Source: Bacteroidales bacterium
GTDB taxonomy: Bacteria > Bacteroidota > Bacteroidia > Bacteroidales > UBA932
Reading direction: 5' to 3'
DNA: 64,000 bases
Assembly: GCA_017443025.1 (NCBI GenBank)
Contig: JAFSPG010000007.1
Location: forward strand, 1 to 64,000
Shown here: piece by piece, positions 3,246 to 40,003 of the stretch
Position numbering within the stretch: the first letter of the stretch is position 1
How the letters are laid out: each line of letters starts with the position of its first letter
Translations under genes and position numbers: made by a program
Notes under the pieces: generated by a model
Told to the model about the DNA's origin: nothing
What the model saw: the letters and a program-made list of their open reading frames with translations, nothing else
The model's database searches: none

Positions 3246-3280
3246 TACAGACAGCAAATGCAATGAATGTCCGTGAGATA

Positions 3281-3369
3281 AGATCTCTCCACTCGCTTCG
3301 CTCGGTCGAGATGACAAGAGTGATGTCATTTCGAGCGGAGACCGAAGGTCAAAGTCGAGAAATCTTTTA
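3281..3369. repeat. REP-like palindromic element, inverted pair (copy A)
   Basis: Two inverted units make up the element. Positions 3281-3316 read ...ACTCGCTTCGCTCGGTCGAG..., and 3324-3369 carry a degenerate inverted unit ending GAGAAATCTTTT. The same unit recurs at 4109-4143, 32371-32460 and 39482-39530. It occupies the 5' untranslated region of the cyclophilin gene and ends 13-14 nt before its ATG. Confidence 0.85.
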
Positions 3370-3382
3370 AATACTTTATGAT

Positions 3383-4108
3383 ATGCGAATATTTAGAATC
3401 ATTCTTTTTGCAGCGGCGGCAGTAGCGCTCGCCGCCTGCGGCAACAACGCAGCACAGAAAGCCCAGAAAGCCGCAGAGGCAGCGGCCCTCAAGGCAGCAC
3501 AAGACTCAATCGCAGCCGCGGAGCTGGCTGCAAAGGCACAAATCATCAGCGAGAAAATCAAAATGTTAGCAGAAGAACCCGTATTTGTAATCGAGACCAG
3601 TCTCGGCACCATCAAGGTAAAACTCTACAAGAAGACCCCCCTTCACCGCGCCAACTTCGAAAAGCTCGCCCTTGAAGGATACTACGACGGACTGCTGTTC
3701 CATCGCGTAATCAACGGCTTCATGATTCAGGGCGGAGACCCTTTGACCAAAGACCCGTCCAAGGTCGGCCAGTACGGCACCGGTGGCCCTTCATATACAA
3801 TTCCGGCGGAATTCATTCCGGAATACAAGCACAAGAAAGGCGCCCTGGCCGCAGCCCGCAGGGGCGATGCAGCCAATCCCATGAAAGAATCCTCCGGCTC
3901 GCAGTTCTATCTGGTGCAGAGCCCCGAGGCCTGCGCCGCGCTTGACGGCGACTATACCGTCTATGGCCAGACAATCGAAGGTCTCGATGTAATCGACAAG
4001 ATTGCGGCCGTGCCCACCAATCCCCGTGGCCTGCCGAACAACCCCGTAAAAATCATCTCCGTCAAGCTCGACCCCGCCTTCGAGCCCGTCCCTGCTCCCG
4101 CGGAGTAA
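3383..4108 (+). CDS. Cyclophilin-type peptidyl-prolyl isomerase lipoprotein
   Basis: A 241-residue envelope protein that catalyses cis-trans isomerisation of prolyl bonds, a folding aid for exported proteins. Residues 1-19 form a lipoprotein signal peptide (lipobox LAAC, Cys19). An Ala/Lys/Gln-rich, probably helical linker follows to about residue 65. The cyclophilin domain starts near residue 70 with VIETSLGTIKVKLY and contains LLFHRVINGFMIQGGDP, the conserved FHRVI...Q.GD core including the catalytic Arg, and GSQFYLV. It is flanked on both sides by REP-like elements and transcribed from its own promoter. Confidence 0.93.
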   Translation: MRIFRIILFAAAAVALAACGNNAAQKAQKAAEAAALKAAQDSIAAAELAAKAQIISEKIKMLAEEPVFVIETSLGTIKVKLYKKTPLHRANFEKLALEGYYDGLLFHRVINGFMIQGGDPLTKDPSKVGQYGTGGPSYTIPAEFIPEYKHKKGALAAARRGDAANPMKESSGSQFYLVQSPEACAALDGDYTVYGQTIEGLDVIDKIAAVPTNPRGLPNNPVKIISVKLDPAFEPVPAPAE

Positions 4109-4143
4109 GCTCTCTCCACTCGCTTCGCTCGGTCGAGATGACA
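4109..4143. repeat. REP-like palindromic element, single unit (copy B)
   Basis: One unit (CTCTCCACTCGCTTCGCTCG core, then GTCGAGATGACA) begins directly after the TAA stop of the cyclophilin gene. It is nearly identical over 30 nt to the first unit of copy A, so that gene is bracketed by the repeat. Confidence 0.85.
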
Positions 4144-9796: not shown

Positions 9797-9933
9797 GTGC
9801 AGTCGTCCCAAAAAATTGGGACGTCCGCGCCGAAAACCGCCAAAAACAGTGCAGTCGTCCCAAAAAATTGGGACGTCCGCGCCGAAAACCGCCAAAAACA
9901 GTGCAGTCGTCCCAGTTTTTGGGACGACTGCAC
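9797..9933. repeat. 52-bp tandem repeat, 2.6 copies, with nested palindromes
   Basis: Copies begin at 9797, 9849 and 9901 with an exact 52-bp period. Each of the first two contains the perfect inverted repeat GTCCCAA-AAAA-TTGGGAC. The third is truncated and instead forms one perfect 14-bp stem (9901-9914 with 9920-9933, 5-nt loop). The block lies between the TonB receptor gene (ends 9957) and the operon starting at 9719. Its stems followed by T-rich DNA on the minus strand could act as terminators. Confidence 0.88.
9901..9933 (-). terminator. Candidate terminator of the TonB receptor gene
   Basis: A perfect 14-bp stem with a 5-nt loop is followed on the minus strand by TGTTTTTGG. It sits 24 nt after the receptor's stop codon. 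The T run is interrupted, so termination strength is uncertain. Confidence 0.55.
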
Positions 9934-9956: not shown

Positions 9957-12900
9957 TTAGAAACTGAGTTTTGCGCTCAAGAGCATCTGCCAGGTGTTGT
10001 AAACGTTCTTGTAAGTGTTTACAACAGGCTTGTTGAAGGTGTACACACCGTTCTTGTAAGTGAGGATGTTCTCCCTGCTGATCTGCTTGCTCAGACCCCA
10101 GTCGGAATTGAGCAGGTTGGCAAAGTTGATGATATCCACACCGAGAGTGAGGGTGTTGGTGTGACCTGCCACGTTGAACTTGAAGTCCTGGGCAACCTTC
10201 ACGTTGAAGCGATTCTGCCAAGGAGCAACCTTTGCGCCGCGCTTGGAGTACTCGCCACGGTGATGCTTGGTGTAGCTGTCGTGCTCGATGAAGTCGCGGA
10301 AAGCTTCTTTGTTCTCCTCGCTGGTGAACTTCATCACGGAGAGGTCAAGGTCATCCGGGATGTACATCAGGTTGTAGGAACCACCTTCACCGGTAACGTT
10401 ATCCATTGCATAGGAATAGCGGGAATAGGAATATCCGCCAATCCAGCAGTGATTGTAGCCCTCATAGAAGACACCAATCGTGGTAGCAAGGTGCTTGCCT
10501 TCAGGAATGCGCCAGCTGACGTTTGCAATCAGGCGGTGAGGAGATACGAAGCCGGAATAGCCGAGCTCAGGCTCGTTGGAACCGTTGACTGCATAGTTGC
10601 CGCCGGAGAAGAGGGAAGAAACCTGGTCGCCGTAGCCTTCCTGGACGGTCTTGGAAACGCTGTAGGTGTAAGCTGCCATTGCAGAAAGTCCGAAGGAGAA
10701 ATCTTTCTGGAGCTTGGCGGTTACGGAAGCGTAGTATCCGTGCTTGTCGATATTGGTCAGGTAGTAAGGGGTTACTGAGCCGTTCTGGGAGTTCTTGATG
10801 TTCTCGGAATTCCAGAGGCTGCGAGGAGTGGGCTCGCCCGGGAGACGGATGCCACCGTCAACCTTCTTGTAACCGAGGCGGAGGGCTGCGACAGTCTCGA
10901 GGTCGCGGCTGTAGATACCCTCGACGCTACCCTTGATTCCGAAAGGAAGCTGGACGTCTGCAGCAAGGCTGAACTTGGCGGCAGTAGGCATCTTCAGCTT
11001 GGTGTCGATGATGGTAGCCTGGGTAGGAGCGGCAAGATCCTGCTTTACGAAGGTTCCGCCATAGATGTCGGCGAGGATGTCGGCGGTATTGGTGTGGAAG
11101 TTAGGCCATACACCCTGAGTTCCCCTCGGGAGGATGTACTGAGCCTGGAGGCAGTTGCTGTTGCCGGCTACGGATACGATCCATACGAAAGGAATACGTC
11201 CGGTGTAGATACCTGCGCCACCACGGAGGATGAGCTTACGGTTCTTCAGGACATCCCAGTTGAAGCCGATACGAGGCGAGATGGAAGGAATGCTCTGAGG
11301 CATGTGCTGGGTCGAGAGACCGTGGATGGAATTGTCACCCTGAGCGAGTTCTGCAAATTCCTTGTTGAAATTATCCTTCAGCTTAGGATAGTAAGGGAGC
11401 TCGAAGCGGAGGCCGGCAGTGAGCTTGAAGTAATCGCTGAAGTTGATTTCGTCCTGGGCGTACCAGGAGGCCTGAACATATTCAAACGCAGGATAAGTCT
11501 GCGAGAGATTGTCGTTGTTGGGGTGAGTGATAGCGAAAGCTGCGGGAGCGCCGCCGGCCTTGAAATCCTCCCAGCTGTCGTAAACATAGTATCCGAGACC
11601 GCCCTGCATGAAGCCGTTCTTGGTCTTGTTGTACTCGAACTGACCACCGAGGAGGAAGTTGTGGATTCCGTTGGTTATGGTGATTTCGTCGGTAACGGTA
11701 TATGTGTTGACGTCGCGGAGATTACCGTAGGTGAAGGGGTCCGGCCCGAAGGAAGTGATCACGGCATTGGTATCGCCGTAGGGCTCCATGATATCCACCG
11801 TAGGGAAGTTTCCGCCTTCGAAGGAACGGGGCTCATTCTGGCGTGACCAGGTCAGACGGAGCATGTTGGACACTTTGTCGCCGAAGCGGCTGTTGAGCTC
11901 GGCAGCGACGGAGGTGTAGTTACGCTCCTGATAGTAACGGTTGCTCTCGAAGAACATTGCATAGTCCGAAGTACGGCCGAAAGCCTTGCGGTCGTAAGGA
12001 TTAGGGACGATAGGGTTGACCGAGTTCGAAGGAGAGTTGGAATCGTAGTTATGGGTATGGCTGAACCTTACATTGAGTTTGTGGTTCTCGTTGATGATCC
12101 AGTCGAGACGGGCCATGATCTTATAGTCAGGAGTCTTGAGGGAATAGCCCTGATAACGTCCTGGATTATATCCATAGTTGTCGTGAAGATAACCGAGAAC
12201 CTCGTTCATGAAGGTATCGGTAGGGCGGACCACCGTGCCACCGGGCTGGAAGTCGTCGCCGGTCCTGCCGGCACCTTCGCTGACCACCTTGCTGGAACCG
12301 GGGACATTATCCCAGGTGTATTCGCCGTTTACAAAGAAGAAGAGCTTGTTCTTGATGATAGGGCCACCGATGGAGACACCGAGGGTGTTGTCAAGGAAGT
12401 CGCTCTTGGGAATATCTTTCCCTTCAATCTTAAAGCCACGAACCTTTTCGCTTGTGTAATAGTCGTACACGGAAGCGTGAAATTCATTGGTACCGCTCTT
12501 GGTAACAGCGTTGATTGCACCGCCGGTAAAGCCGGACTGGCGGACATCGAAAGGAGTGATGCTAACGCTGAGCTGGTCAAGGGCGTCCAGTGAAATAGGA
12601 GAGCCGTTGCCAGGCAGGTTGGAACCGATACCGAAGGCGTTGTTGAAGGCTGCACCATCGACGGTGACATACGATGAACGGTAGTTACCGCCGCCGATTG
12701 CAAGGCCGTTGCTGGTTGAAGATGCCTGAGGAGTGAGCTTCATTACGTCGTTCATGCTGCGGCTGACGGTAGGGAGGGCCGACATCGTCCTCTGGCTTAC
12801 CGATGTGCCGACTCCTGAGCGCTGGAGCTGCATGCTTGAATCGTTGCCGTCGGCTACGAATACTGCTGCATCAAGCGTCAGGCTTTCGTCCTCAAGGGTA

Positions 12901-13220
12901 GCGTCGAGTGTAAGAATCTCACCGAGGGGGGCATAGATACCTACATGCTCGACCTTGCGGTAACCAAGCATTTCGACAGTCACTTTGTAAGGGCCGCCAG
13001 GGACAGTACCGTTGATACGGTAATTACCCTTTGCGTCGGATACAGTGAAATAAGAAGCACCCGTAGGCTGATAGACAGCGACCACGGTAGCGCCTGCTAC
13101 GGCACCTTCCTTGTCGGCAATACGGCCGGCAATAGATGATGTGGTAACCTGAGCAAACGAAGAGACGGCAGCCAACACTGATATAACAGCGGCTGCAACA
13201 AATCTAAAAGATTGATTCAT
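9957..13220 (-). CDS. Oar-like TonB-dependent outer-membrane receptor
   Basis: A 1087-residue outer-membrane transporter. A signal peptide (about residues 1-23) is followed by a carboxypeptidase-regulatory-like beta-sandwich (about 27-110, SSIAGRIADKEGAVAGATVV). The TonB plug comes next (about 130-240, with LTPQASSTSNGLAIGGGNYR and GGAINAVTKSGTNEFHAS), then a long barrel ending in LLSAKLSF with a terminal Phe. This matches Oar-like receptors rather than SusC: no SusD partner is nearby and the plug lacks the SusC signature. It would import an unknown ligand using the TonB/ExbBD proton-motive system. It has its own strong promoter. The exported operon at 4915-9719 follows on the same strand. 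Confidence 0.9.
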   Translation of the reverse strand: MNQSFRFVAAAVISVLAAVSSFAQVTTSSIAGRIADKEGAVAGATVVAVYQPTGASYFTVSDAKGNYRINGTVPGGPYKVTVEMLGYRKVEHVGIYAPLGEILTLDATLEDESLTLDAAVFVADGNDSSMQLQRSGVGTSVSQRTMSALPTVSRSMNDVMKLTPQASSTSNGLAIGGGNYRSSYVTVDGAAFNNAFGIGSNLPGNGSPISLDALDQLSVSITPFDVRQSGFTGGAINAVTKSGTNEFHASVYDYYTSEKVRGFKIEGKDIPKSDFLDNTLGVSIGGPIIKNKLFFFVNGEYTWDNVPGSSKVVSEGAGRTGDDFQPGGTVVRPTDTFMNEVLGYLHDNYGYNPGRYQGYSLKTPDYKIMARLDWIINENHKLNVRFSHTHNYDSNSPSNSVNPIVPNPYDRKAFGRTSDYAMFFESNRYYQERNYTSVAAELNSRFGDKVSNMLRLTWSRQNEPRSFEGGNFPTVDIMEPYGDTNAVITSFGPDPFTYGNLRDVNTYTVTDEITITNGIHNFLLGGQFEYNKTKNGFMQGGLGYYVYDSWEDFKAGGAPAAFAITHPNNDNLSQTYPAFEYVQASWYAQDEINFSDYFKLTAGLRFELPYYPKLKDNFNKEFAELAQGDNSIHGLSTQHMPQSIPSISPRIGFNWDVLKNRKLILRGGAGIYTGRIPFVWIVSVAGNSNCLQAQYILPRGTQGVWPNFHTNTADILADIYGGTFVKQDLAAPTQATIIDTKLKMPTAAKFSLAADVQLPFGIKGSVEGIYSRDLETVAALRLGYKKVDGGIRLPGEPTPRSLWNSENIKNSQNGSVTPYYLTNIDKHGYYASVTAKLQKDFSFGLSAMAAYTYSVSKTVQEGYGDQVSSLFSGGNYAVNGSNEPELGYSGFVSPHRLIANVSWRIPEGKHLATTIGVFYEGYNHCWIGGYSYSRYSYAMDNVTGEGGSYNLMYIPDDLDLSVMKFTSEENKEAFRDFIEHDSYTKHHRGEYSKRGAKVAPWQNRFNVKVAQDFKFNVAGHTNTLTLGVDIINFANLLNSDWGLSKQISRENILTYKNGVYTFNKPVVNTYKNVYNTWQMLLSAKLSF

Positions 13221-13390: not shown

Positions 13391-13459
13391 GGAAGCTATG
13401 CTTCCGAAGTGGAAAGATTTGGCTGCTTGCAACCACTGTTTAAAAAATGCTAAAAAACT
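13391..13459 (+). promoter_or_regulatory. SAM-II-like riboswitch in the metK leader
   Basis: The leader shows the ordered SAM-II (metA element) motifs: P1 5' strand AGTGG (13408-13412), GATTTGG, GCTTGCAA, P1 3' strand CCACT (13433-13437), GTTTAAA and GCTAAAAA (13449-13456). ATTT in the loop can pair with AAAT just before GCTAAAAA as the pseudoknot. GCTAAAAA ends 3 nt before the ATG, so ligand binding would mask the initiation region and shut off S-adenosylmethionine synthesis. A separate hairpin GGAAGC-TAT-GCTTCC (13391-13405) precedes it. SAM-II is best known from alphaproteobacteria. The match is by eye. Confidence 0.72.
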
Positions 13460-14719
13460 ATGAACTATCTGTTTACTTCCGAATCCGTTTCTGAAGGGCA
13501 CCCTGATAAGGTAGCCGACCAGATTTCCGATGCAATCCTCGATGAATTCCTCCGCCAGGACCGCCGTGCCAAGGTAGCCTGCGAGACATTCTGTTCTACC
13601 GGCCTTGTGGTCGTGGGTGGAGAAGTCCGTTCCGATGACGCCTACGTCGATATTCAGGATGTCGTCCGCCGGGTAATCGACCGAATCGGTTACAACAAAG
13701 CCGAATATATGTTCGACTCCAATTCCTGCGGCGTTCTGTCGGCCATCCACGAGCAGAGCGGCGACATCAACCGTGGCGTCGAGAGAGAAAATCCCGAGGA
13801 GCAGGGAGCCGGCGATCAGGGCATAATGTTCGGTTACGCCTGCCGCGACACCGAAGATTATATGCCTCTCCCCCTCGCGCTTTCGCATCTTGCGCTGAGG
13901 ATTCTGGCCGATATCCGCCGCGAGGCCGCGTCCCCTATGCCATACCTCAGGCCCGACGCCAAGGCACAGTTCACCATAGAGTATGACGATGCCACCCATA
14001 AACCCCTGCGCATCCACACTATGGTGCTCTCGACGCAGCACGACGAATTCGATACAGATGAGAAAATGCACGCGCGCATCACGCGCGACGTACGCGAGGT
14101 CTTGATTCCGCGAATCAAGGCTCAGCTGCCGGCCGAAACCGCAGCACTTTTTGATGCCGATTTGATTCTGCACGTCAATCCTACCGGAAAATTCGTGATT
14201 GGCGGCCCTGCAGGCGATACAGGCCTTACCGGGCGCAAGATTATCGTGGATACCTACGGCGGCCGCGGTGCTCACGGCGGCGGAGCCTTCTCCGGCAAGG
14301 ACCCGTCGAAGGTCGACCGTTCCGGAGCCTATGCCGCCCGCTATATAGCCAAGAATCTCGTAGCTGCAGGAGTGGCCGACGAAATGCTGATTCAGGTTTC
14401 TTATGCAATCGGAGTGGCAAAGCCGCTGAGCATTTACGCCAATAGTTACGGAACCGCCCGGGCCGGCCTGAGCGACAGCCAGATAGCAGCCCGCATCGGC
14501 GAACTCTTTGACCTCCGACCGGCTAAAATCGTCGAGAAATTCGGCCTCGACAATCCTATCTACGAACCCACTGCCGCATACGGCCACATGGGCCGCAAGC
14601 CCTTCACCCGCAAGGTGAAACTGCGCCGCGGCGGCCGCGAAGAAGAGCGCGAAGTCCGCTTCTTCGCCTGGGAGGAGCTCGACGCCGTCCCCGCCATCCG
14701 CGCCGCCTTCGGCATTTAA
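13460..14719 (+). CDS. metK: S-adenosylmethionine synthase
   Basis: A 419-residue cytoplasmic enzyme that makes S-adenosylmethionine from ATP and methionine. It has all three MetK domains and motifs: [17 protein letters not shown] near the N-terminus (ATP and metal binding), [12 protein letters not shown] near residue 115 and [19 protein letters not shown] near residue 275 (phosphate-binding loop). Length is close to Bacteroides MetK (about 430). The start codon follows the SAM-II-like element by 3 nt, giving product feedback control. The gene is monocistronic, convergent with the ComF-like gene. Confidence 0.97.
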
Positions 14720-21461: not shown

Positions 21462-21671
21462 AATTGAAATGGCGAATTTGAGCCATCTTTACAAATGTCG
21501 CAAATCCCAACAACTCCGCAAAATATTTTTGGGCGCCCCATTTAAAGAATCGTAAAAAAATCATAAGAATCGTATAAAATTTGACCAACTCGAGCAAAGT
21601 TTCATAGGAATCCCCGAAATATGTGACAATACTTGCAGCGTCGGATTCTTCCGCTTAATCGAAAACACGTT

Positions 21672-22529
21672 ATGGAAAAGTATTATCACCTGCACTCTTC
21701 TCCCCTTTTACATTGTCCATTATTCAGAAACGATGTCGGCCGGAGATTTTTTCTGAATCATCTTGCCCTTGTGCTGATTGACAGCCGCGTCAAGATATAT
21801 GTATATTGTTTGATGGATAATCATATTCATTTTCTTGTGAGCGGCGAAGAAAACGATATTATTGAGCTGTTTGCCGAAGTAAAAAAGATTTATGGAAGAT
21901 TTCTCGTTGAGGAAGAAAGCCATATTCCAATTAGTCTTGATAAATTTTCAATATCAATGAGGGTAATTTCTGGCGGAGAAGATTTCAAGATAGTAACGGC
22001 CTATATCCTTCGTAATGGTCTGGTGGCCGGCCTGGGCTCGCCATACAGTTATAAATGGTGTTCTGTCCAATTGTATTATAACCCTTTCGTGGAATTATTC
22101 CGAGGAATAGGGGCCTGGGATTACGGAATGCGTAAAATCAGGTCCGTTATAAAAACCAGGCAACCTATCCCGGAGAGGCTTTCATTTTTTGACGATATGA
22201 TAAGTCCGCTTTGCTGGTGCGATTATAAAAAGGTTGAAAAAGTATTTGGCAGTTCCTCCGAATTCTTCAAGTACCTTGGGAGATGGACCGTCGAAAACGA
22301 AGAGGAATCAAAGCTGGAAGCTACAGAGAAAAATGCATACACCGACAGTGCTCTCGTCTCAAAGTTGAAAGATTATTGCTCACTTCAAGGCGTCGGTTCC
22401 GTTGACGATTTATCTGCCGCAGAATTACGTAACCTCATAAGGATGGCGCATAACCGCTGGGGCGCCTCGAAAAAGCAGATTGAGAGAGTCATCGGGATTT
22501 CCGCCTCCATGGTGCAGAAATACTACTGA
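21672..22529 (+). CDS. REP-associated tyrosine transposase (RAYT/TnpA-REP type)
   Basis: A 285-residue single-domain Y1 HUH transposase. The HUH motif is in YCLMDNHIHFLVSG (about residues 50-63). The catalytic Tyr is most likely in the helix VKKIYGRFL (about residue 80). A C-terminal region (NRWGASKKQIERVIGISASMVQKYY) looks like a helix-turn-helix. RAYTs are non-autonomous housekeeping-type relatives of IS200/IS605 transposases and are linked to spreading REP palindromes. The ATG at 21672 gives the usual N-terminus. A more AT-rich coding region than its neighbours suggests acquisition. No IS ends are seen, and the repeat-rich block at 22605-22760 lies directly downstream. Confidence 0.85.
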   Translation: MEKYYHLHSSPLLHCPLFRNDVGRRFFLNHLALVLIDSRVKIYVYCLMDNHIHFLVSGEENDIIELFAEVKKIYGRFLVEEESHIPISLDKFSISMRVISGGEDFKIVTAYILRNGLVAGLGSPYSYKWCSVQLYYNPFVELFRGIGAWDYGMRKIRSVIKTRQPIPERLSFFDDMISPLCWCDYKKVEKVFGSSSEFFKYLGRWTVENEEESKLEATEKNAYTDSALVSKLKDYCSLQGVGSVDDLSAAELRNLIRMAHNRWGASKKQIERVIGISASMVQKYY

Positions 22530-31649: not shown

Positions 31650-32354
31650 TTATTTATGAACCAAAGTTCCGACCTGCTCTCCGCCGAGTATTCTGCTCAG
31701 GTTGCCGGAGACGGTCATGTCGAAGACGATGATGGGCATGTTGCCTTCGGAACAAAGGGCGAAAGCCGTCTGGTCCATCACTTTCAGATGTTTGGTGATG
31801 GCTTCGTCGAAGGTGAGGTCGGCGTACTTCACTGCCGAAGGATCTTTCTCGGGGTCGGCGGTATAGACTCCGTCCACGCGCGTCCCTTTAAGAATTGCAT
31901 CCGCATGAATCTCGAGCGCGCGCAGGGCTGCGCCGGAGTCTGTGGTGAAGAAGGGATTGCCGGTGCCGCCGGAGATGAGAGCCACGCCGCCGCTTTCGAG
32001 GAACTCAACTGCAGCGTCGCGGTTATAATAACGGGCAATGGGCTCCATCGGGGTTGCGGTGAACACGCGCGCATCCACGCCTTCTTCTTTAATAAATGTA
32101 GCGAGGGCGAGAGAATTGATTACCGTGGCAAGCATTCCCATCTTGTCGCCATCAACGCGGTCGAAGCCCTTTCCGGCGCCCTGAAGGCCACGGAAGATGT
32201 TTCCGCCGCCATTGACAATGGCCACCTGCATACCTTTTTTTACAGCAGCAGCAACTTCAACGGCTACCGCCTTGAGGCTTTCCGGGTCGAGGCCGTGTCC
32301 TGCGCCTCCGCCCAGGCTCTCGCCGCTTATCTTCAATAATACTCGTTTGTACAT
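31650..32354 (-). CDS. pyrH: UMP kinase
   Basis: A 234-residue cytoplasmic kinase converting UMP to UDP. It contains YKRVLLKISGESLGG, VAIVNGGGNIFRG, VINSLALATFIKEEGVDARVFTA, LISGGTGNPFFTTDSGAALRA and the C-terminal DMTVSGNL...GEQVGTLV. The ATG at 32354 gives the normal N-terminus. The frame stays open further upstream through a REP-like element to 32498, which is not part of the protein. First gene of pyrH-frr-aro, with the REP element filling its 5' untranslated region. Confidence 0.96.
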   Translation of the reverse strand: MYKRVLLKISGESLGGGAGHGLDPESLKAVAVEVAAAVKKGMQVAIVNGGGNIFRGLQGAGKGFDRVDGDKMGMLATVINSLALATFIKEEGVDARVFTATPMEPIARYYNRDAAVEFLESGGVALISGGTGNPFFTTDSGAALRALEIHADAILKGTRVDGVYTADPEKDPSAVKYADLTFDEAITKHLKVMDQTAFALCSEGNMPIIVFDMTVSGNLSRILGGEQVGTLVHK

Positions 32355-32370
32355 ATATATACTTCTATAT

Positions 32371-32460
32371 AAGATTTCTCCACTCGCTTCGCTCGGTCGA
32401 AATGACAGAAAGGTCATGTCGAACCACTTCTTGTCATGTCGAGCGAAGTCGAGACATCTT
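32371..32460. repeat. REP-like palindromic element, inverted pair (copy C)
   Basis: Units at 32372-32407 and 32432-32460 are inverted relative to each other and match copies A, B and D. The element lies between the pyrH promoter (32468-32499) and its ATG (32354), entirely inside the predicted 5' untranslated region, 16 nt from the start codon. Confidence 0.87.
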
Positions 32461-39457: not shown

Positions 39458-39465
39458 TATATTTG
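39458..39465 (+). promoter_or_regulatory. -7 box for the 155-residue membrane protein gene
   Basis: TATATTTG (39458-39465). Start near 39471, so the REP-like copy D (39482-39530) fills the leader up to the ATG at 39536. Confidence 0.6.
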
Positions 39466-39481
39466 CATATTCCGCGCCAAA

Positions 39482-39530
39482 ATGACACCGTTGTCATTTC
39501 GAGCGAGCGAAGCGAGTCGAGAAATCTTTT
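39482..39530. repeat. REP-like palindromic element (copy D)
   Basis: The unit TGTCATTTCGAGCGAGCGAA... ending GAGAAATCTTTT (39492-39530) is preceded by a short inverted ATGACA. It matches the inverted unit of copies A and C and stops 5 nt before the ATG at 39536. Confidence 0.85.
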
Positions 39531-39535
39531 ATATC

Positions 39536-40003
39536 ATGCGATACATCATCCGAAGCATCAAATACTTCATCTACTTCACTCTTCTTCTGGTCGTCATGCT
39601 TACGGCTCTAAGGCTGCTGCACATGACCGGCGACGCCACCGATATCCCCTCGATGTTCAAGGACGGCTACAACTCCCTGCTCTACATCGCCCTGATGTTC
39701 GCCGGAGTGTCGGCCATCTATCCCCTTGTGGCCTTCGCCAAGATGAAGGCCCTGGTGGCGGGTGATGACGCCGAAGCCTCTAAAACCGTCAAGGAATATA
39801 TGGACGGCCGCGGATATCTCCTCGAAAAGGAAGATGCCGAATCAATGTCTTTCCGCCTTCGCTCCACCGGAGGACGCATCCTCAAGATGATGGAAGACCG
39901 CATCATCTTCGAAAGGACTTTTTCGGGCTATGTGGTCAAGGGACTCCGCAAGGATGTGGTCAGAATCATCCACGGAGTCGAGGCCAAGGCAAGGCAGGAA
40001 TAG
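39536..40003 (+). CDS. Two-helix membrane protein of unknown function
   Basis: A 155-residue protein. It has two membrane helices (about 8-28 and 48-70) and a cytoplasmic domain of about 85 residues (MDGRGYLLEKEDAESMSFRLRS...). I recognise no family. The ATG at 39536 is used; the frame remains open upstream through REP copy D, but that part is repeat DNA. Adjacent convergent DUF3109 gene starts its end at the next base. Confidence 0.72.
   Translation: MRYIIRSIKYFIYFTLLLVVMLTALRLLHMTGDATDIPSMFKDGYNSLLYIALMFAGVSAIYPLVAFAKMKALVAGDDAEASKTVKEYMDGRGYLLEKEDAESMSFRLRSTGGRILKMMEDRIIFERTFSGYVVKGLRKDVVRIIHGVEAKARQE

Follow-up and report, generated by a model that had tools for sequence, protein, structure and literature searches.

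The locus studied here raises the question of why a short palindrome should lie just ahead of a start codon, pointing towards the gene, when similar palindromes are found in the same attitude ahead of two other genes. The initial annotation regarded this recurring position as something not expected of random insertion. The window, that is, the whole stretch of DNA that was analysed, comprises 64,000 nt of a Bacteroidales bacterium contig (JAFSPG010000007.1), and the two other genes are pyrH and a gene for a cyclophilin-type peptidyl-prolyl isomerase. The coordinates of these features, together with loci from other genomes that are discussed below, are collected in Table 1.

As described previously, the copy at this locus (copy D) is flanked by TATATTTG on its upstream side and by the ATG at 39536 on its downstream side. 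We take TAnnTTTG to be the Bacteroidetes -7 motif, and TATATTTG is hence putatively promoter-like. All three leader copies are indeed in the sense orientation, but the gaps between the ...AATCTT end and the start codon are 7 nt at copy D and 16 nt at both pyrH and the cyclophilin-type gene, rather than the 5, 14 and 16 nt first given. Three copies in the window had also been implied, and the actual number is six, including head-to-head partners of the pyrH and cyclophilin-type leader copies and a degenerate copy. An in-frame upstream ATG (39482) is present inside what may be a decayed inverted arm upstream of copy D. The 155-aa product of the downstream gene matched no Pfam family, and 14 further genomes in the genus have an orthologue of the gene.

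Table 1. Features at the copy D locus, elsewhere in the window and at selected loci of other genomes
Feature	Position or locus	Strand	Basis
Promoter-like motif (putative), TATATTTG	39458-39465	+	sequence
Possible decayed inverted 5' arm, CCAAAATGACA	39478-39488	-	by eye
Copy D, TGTC-tagged palindrome, TGTCATTTCGAGCGAGCGAAGCGAGTCGAGAAATCTT	39492-39528	+	pattern and covariance-model match
Downstream gene, 155 aa	39536-40003	+	codon-usage caller
pyrH (AA_kinase family)	31650-32354	-	Pfam, gene caller
pyrH leader copy, sense to pyrH	32371-32407	-	pattern match
Partner copy, ATGTC stem, head to head with pyrH copy	32432-32459	+	pattern and covariance model
Partner copy, ATCTC stem, head to head with 3324-3366	3280-3316	-	pattern match
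Cyclophilin-type gene leader copy	3324-3366	+	pattern match
Cyclophilin-type peptidyl-prolyl isomerase gene	3383-4108	+	Pfam, gene caller
Degenerate copy, 3' end overlapping stop codon of 3383-4108	4107-4143	-	DNA search, covariance model
In-frame housekeeping insertions (dnaG, metG, urocanase, rlmN-like, prmC-like, dnaX-type)	L003, L006, L048, L147, L156, L165, L175		
Directional tandem duplication, ~9 nt 5' flank plus 5' arm	L161, L162, L321, L326 and others		

Two further features of the window were noted in passing. An Rfam scan gave a SAM-II riboswitch (RF01726, 57.8 bits; 13403-13463) as its sole hit, which lies directly 5' of the S-adenosylmethionine synthetase gene (13460-14719) and is unrelated to the palindrome. 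A perfect tandem repeat of two 52-nt units, with a small palindrome inside, occupies 9797-9900, just downstream of a gene for an outer-membrane beta-barrel protein (9957-13220, minus strand).

A dispersed family of palindromes

We searched the genome from which the window derives (1.66 Mb, 19 contigs) with copy D and obtained 45 matches at E <=10, the query itself included. The pattern TGTCATNTCGANCG-N(0,30)-NGAGANATCT found 43 exact copies in this genome and the reversed pattern none, so that the repeat is present beyond chance. With a covariance model there were 50 matches, 49 of them at E <0.01, and 49 was taken as the copy count; strict copies were 28-43 nt in length. The family consists of TGTC-AT...AT-CT palindromes dispersed in gut Bacteroidales genomes. 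Counting the window's own genome in each case, the family was present in 12 members of one panel of 41 genomes. Of the 151 genomes in the genus (the genus being inferred, and the pattern limited to the ATTTC stem), 56 were positive, as were, across the phylum, 78 of the 395 genomes, representing 29 of the 171 genera. The seven best named relatives of pyrH, at 74-82% identity, came from Bacteroidales MAGs, among them Candidatus Cryptobacteroides avicola. Among the open-access papers searched, we found none relevant by title for the letters of the element, and none on intragenic REPs in Bacteroidales or on palindromic repeats in Cryptobacteroides.

The stem was modeled as A-T, T-A, N-N', T-A and C-G pairs, followed by GA/GA and then by S-S' and C-G. 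Across 31 distinct aligned copies, 217 of 217 stem cells were paired and 19 two-sided changes were counted, a number reached by none of 500 shuffles. Support for the stem comes from N-N' and S-S', since only these two pairs were free under the search pattern. N-N' occurred as four Watson-Crick types, and the proposed GA/GA pairs were invariant across copies and thus carry no covariation information. The two covarying stem pairs therefore support the predicted hairpin, and the longer copies appear by eye to have an additional hairpin at the tip. Folded thermodynamically as DNA, the element was no more stable than shuffled sequences, and the RNA folds of the three leaders gave z scores of +1.8, +0.9 and +0.3 against shuffles, none being stronger.

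A wider scan, using the GTCAT tag, the ATCT tail and a 5-bp stem, added further stems, for example ATTCC, ATCCC and ATGCC. The GTCAT...ATCT arrangement was found at 201 places in 1.05 Mb of sequence, all of it fetched for holding elements, compared to 1 to 5 places with any one of four scrambled tags; the 201 include a few apparent chance matches, and some half-plus-full pairs are counted twice.

Position and direction relative to start codons

We recorded the distance and orientation of copies of the family relative to the nearest gene edges in two sets of genomes. Set 1 held 140 copies from four genomes (49, 45, 28 and 18), and set 2, for which the test was fixed in advance, held 105 copies from five other genomes. 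The latter were five of the 56 matching genomes, each with at least 8 listed places and outside set 1; for G073, the 26 of 58 places that were listed were used, and half-plus-full double matches at one locus were counted once. Gene starts were predicted from codon usage, with 28 long ORFs of the window as the training set of the caller. From the total of 245 copies we left out 77 inside genes (57 in set 1 and 20 in set 2) and 16 for which the gene edge was unknown on at least one side (9 and 7), and tested the remaining 152.

The spacers, measured without the element, had a median of about 97 nt in set 1 and 102 nt in set 2. Counting both orientations, 31 copies of set 1 lay within 25 nt of a start, where uniform placement predicted 31.0, and 24 of set 2, where it predicted 26.9, so neither set showed enrichment. 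The recurring position is therefore what uniform placement in short spacers would give. The direction is not: within the same 25 nt the ratio of sense to antisense copies was 26:5 in set 1 and 22:2 in set 2, or 48:7 pooled (p 1.3e-8). The genome-wide comparison that had been proposed for this locus thus yielded no distance bias and a clear orientation bias, and the earlier statement that the recurring position is not expected of random insertion holds for the direction of the copies and not for their position. The real signal is the recurring direction. Sense copies near starts, taken alone, exceeded the number for random position and orientation (26 vs 15.5 and 22 vs 13.5), an excess that is put down to orientation because the two orientations combined show none; an apparent enrichment near starts was accordingly discarded once both had been counted.

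The bias was also seen under an alternative rule in which starts were extended to upstream ATGs, with 30:8 in set 1 and 24:5 in set 2 within 25 nt; in set 1 this rule gave six further copies a start called upstream of the element. Farther from the start the bias was weak or lost. At 26-60 nt the sense to antisense ratios were 4:5 and 11:4, the second set leaning sense, and at 61-150 nt they were 3:11 and 7:7. Stop codons showed no asymmetry: within 10 nt of a stop there were 20 copies by the 3' end and 18 by the 5' end in set 1, and 16 and 13 in set 2.

The orthologous loci bear on how the leader copies came to be where they are. Two pyrH relatives have the motif TACTTTTGTT and, after it, a leader that measures 17 nt in L064 and 29 nt in L066; the window's pyrH has this motif too, followed by the head-to-head element pair and then by the ATG. 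The strict element was missing at all 11 pyrH-relative loci inspected, out of 80 fetched, and at all 14 further loci whose gene is orthologous to the one at 39536, the leader being seen at the correct start in some of these 14 only. Since the orthologous loci examined are without the element, the leader copies seem to have entered short 5' UTRs as lineage-specific insertions.

Our preferred reading, to which we assign a probability of roughly 0.6, is that copy D is a dispersed, hairpin-forming, TGTC-tagged palindrome of the REP type that was inserted in a short 5' UTR and whose orientation was filtered by selection. What is observed directly is the family, the two covarying stem pairs, the orientation bias and the lack of the element at those orthologous loci that were inspected. 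Copies would land fairly evenly in short intergenic spacers, with selection filtering them afterwards. A sense copy before a start would be tolerated, as the common forms are without an ATG and have the A/T-rich end GAGAAATCTT; the sense element holds an ATG only in the form with an ATGTC stem. In the antisense element there is CGAAATGACA, and with it an ATG, which, in its A-rich context, would be set beside the true start, and such copies would mostly be lost. Antisense copies, which bring AAATGACA beside the real start, have thus most likely been purged by selection, and copies inside genes may persist where they are in frame at tolerant sites. Near starts, set 1 has eight antisense copies; in four of them the gene start was called at the element's own ATG, and three of the other four had an upstream ORF ending across the start codon, numbers too small to test. 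The bias peaks around starts and is not seen at stops, which favors a filter at translation initiation over a general strand preference. Avoidance of an ATG does not explain the absence of ATCTC among the sense-leader copies; under the alternative rule, 36 of 36 such copies in set 1 had the ATTTC stem, and other stems occur in 22 of the 140 copies overall.

An unlikely alternative to selection is that the direction was fixed at the time of insertion, by a mobilising enzyme acting with a fixed direction on single-stranded DNA, such as the non-template strand near transcription starts. The 5' flank of the element is pyrimidine-rich, at 70% in the nearest 9 nt (the tag's own T included) compared to 50% further out, and Y1 (HUH) transposases acting on single-stranded DNA have been proposed as the mobilisers of GTAG REPs (PMC6006769). 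However, orientation is unbiased at stops, the in-gene forward to reverse counts of 37:20 and 8:12 are compatible with the 3:2 that stop-free frames, counted by eye, would give, and the family is absent from all 32 Y1_Tnp-match loci that were scanned.

We consider it less probable again that the sense copies have been exapted and are kept as translational or mRNA-stability control elements. The sense bias at starts would fit such a role, as would the single stem type of all set 1 sense-leader copies, the location of copy D and of the pyrH copy between a promoter-like motif and the ATG, and two pairs of related genes from different genomes in which both members have a leader copy. These two are, however, the only cross-genome matches among 36 set 1 leader proteins, the element is missing from the orthologous leaders examined, copies near starts are not in excess, the RNA folds are weak, and the gaps between element and start vary from 1 to 24 nt. 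A dedicated regulatory role is not needed to explain the copies, and a regulatory-looking position can come from short spacers together with an orientation filter.

It had also been observed that the frame of the gene stays open through the repeat at copy D and at pyrH, and our reading of the ORFs agrees: that of copy D reads MTPLSFRASEASREIFYI-MRYI, and the pyrH leader, read by eye, gives LSFRPSEASGEI in an ORF open to 32498. Among 37 forward copies within genes, each of the three frames is found open (in 4, 6 and 27 copies), so that an open leader frame is weak evidence; such openness is expected of the element's sequence and does not show N-terminal coding. That the leader genes initiate within or ahead of the repeat, and so translate the element as an N-terminal extension, is very improbable: the in-frame ATG upstream of copy D, the open pyrH frame and the many in-frame copies inside set 1 genes would agree with it, but the forward frames are open regardless, the inspected pyrH relatives begin at, or a few residues from, the M-Y-K-R-V-L-L-K used as the start in the window, and forward copies in genes prefer VISSExEKS (27/37) over the leader frame LSFRxSEASxEI (6/37).

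Copies within genes and partial copies

In set 1, 65 copies overlapped a called gene and 57 of the 140 lay away from gene ends, some of them sharing a gene. Of these mid-gene copies 20 were reverse and 37 forward, and the frame that reads VISSExEKS was shared by 27 of the latter. In set 2, 20 of the 105 copies were inside genes, 8 forward and 12 reverse, so the forward lean of set 1 was unrepeated and was set aside. The VISSExEKS frame bias, for which the test had been noted beforehand, came to 5 of 8 in set 2 (p 0.09) and was not significant. Among 20 host proteins scanned, 17 had a Pfam family, including DnaG primase, methionyl-tRNA synthetase, an MFS transporter, CitG and urocanase (twice). 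Also among the 17 are a protein that we label MiaB-like radical SAM, PrmC-like and RlmN-like methyltransferases, whose own N-terminal models scored just under the cut-off, and proteins of the Mur-ligase and DNA polymerase III gamma/tau types. In the urocanase and the RlmN-like protein, element-free relatives align on both sides of the insertion spot, where length varies. Two genomes (G000 and G006) have an element at the same loop of urocanase, and the urocanase of a third (G005) carries a diverged one.

Many copies were preceded by a partial copy of themselves. In the first material, 34 of 184 full GTCAT...ATCT copies had their own 5' arm repeated, starting 18-30 nt upstream, and in 9 of the 34 at least 7 of the 9 nt before this arm were identical to those before the full copy (2000 re-pairings gave a mean of 0.8 and a maximum of 4). 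In the second material, 50 of 130 copies had an upstream half copy, with 23 of the 50 flank-matching (re-pairings mean 1.8, maximum 8), and an arm was present within 50 nt downstream in only 4 of 130. The spacer between arm and full copy was mostly about 8-13 nt, with a mode of 9, and the half copy had the same stem letters as the full copy in 29 of 36 cases in the first material and 40 of 53 in the second. The upstream and downstream counts and the flank matches point to a directional duplication that ends near the hairpin apex. Among head-to-head dimers a 9-nt spacer was the most frequent in the first material (10 of 27) and occurred in 0 of 6 in the second. As a tentative suggestion, hairpin-guided copying might spread or remodel the palindromes and leave these partial 5'-side copies, consisting of about 9 nt of flank and the arm to near the apex. 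If true, this would be a footprint of how CGTC-type REPs, which are without a known transposase, arise and move.

Comparison with known palindromes and transposases

The nearest known kind is that of the CGTC/TGTC-tagged REPs, including Rickettsia RPE-4 and RPE-6, and because the tag and stem base agree while the stem build and tail differ, the present family is a variant and not a plain member. In Di Nocera et al. 2013 (PMC3733652), the CGTC superfamily includes RPE-4/RPE-6 and Neisseria dRS3, and G. forsetii is among the positive species; the tag is often TGTC, the stem base is A-T, head-to-head dimers are often of unlike stems, transposase genes are not associated, and copies occur within Rickettsia genes. 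Here the tag is TGTC in all strict copies, as the pattern requires, and in a looser GTCAT scan a T precedes in 96% of 314 copies; the A-T stem base was present in 31 of 31 aligned copies, its letters being fixed in the pattern and thus not independent. The superfamily has a stem of 8-9 bp, a loop of 4-5 nt, an unpaired tail that is mostly CCA and a predominance of head-to-head pairs. Our family instead has 5 + 2 standard pairs split by GA/GA, a variable tip, and a CT tail followed mostly by C or T. Its paired copies were 27 head to head, 7 head to tail and 3 tail to tail of 37 in the first set, and 6, 2 and 4 of 12 in the second, where head-to-head pairs were less dominant. CGTC REPs are reported mainly downstream of coding regions (PMC3733652), whereas the present copies, where they precede start codons, are mostly in the sense orientation. 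At L247, L290 and L292 we saw further GTCAT palindromes whose GC-rich stems are fully paired (e.g. GTCATGCCCGGCCACGACCGGGCATCT); these, too, follow half copies, and they look closer in build to the classical CGTC REPs.

The GTAG REPs and REPINs with RAYT (TnpAREP) are likewise short tagged palindromes that are dispersed and form inverted pairs, but the tag here is TGTC and not GTAG/GTGG, and no Y1 gene lies beside the family in the loci scanned. The strict element was found within ~1.5 kb at 0 of 32 Y1_Tnp-match loci scanned, a subset of many more Y1 matches; among these, L280, L290 and L292 hold other GTCAT palindromes, L275 holds a probable chance match, and the Y1 match of L032 is probably spurious. 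At 21633-22529 the window itself encodes an IS200-like protein that scores weakly against the Pfam family Y1_Tnp. No link to this gene or to a second match (C15) was found, no element being present within 1.5 kb, and a third match (C17) overlaps a cytidylate-kinase-like ORF and is, by eye, probably spurious. TnpAY1 subclass 2.6 (RAYT group 5) of the Bacteroidetes is described in PMC6006769 as having 'atypical secondary structures', non-GTAG hairpins and copies elsewhere in the genome. Compared by that description only, it resembles our family in phylum and in its dispersed non-GTAG hairpins, and differs in that here no physical link to a Y1 gene was seen in the loci scanned.

The in-frame insertions into conserved genes predicted here from sequence work like those of the Rickettsia palindromic elements. 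RPE-1 and similar MITEs are in-frame palindromes in conserved protein genes, as here, but according to PMC10969869 and PMC2229807 they measure ~105-150 bp, compared to 28-43 nt for our strict copies. A REP-type family with in-frame gene insertions is now placed in gut Bacteroidales, and its directional 5'-arm duplication signature could make the mechanism by which CGTC-type palindromes spread testable.
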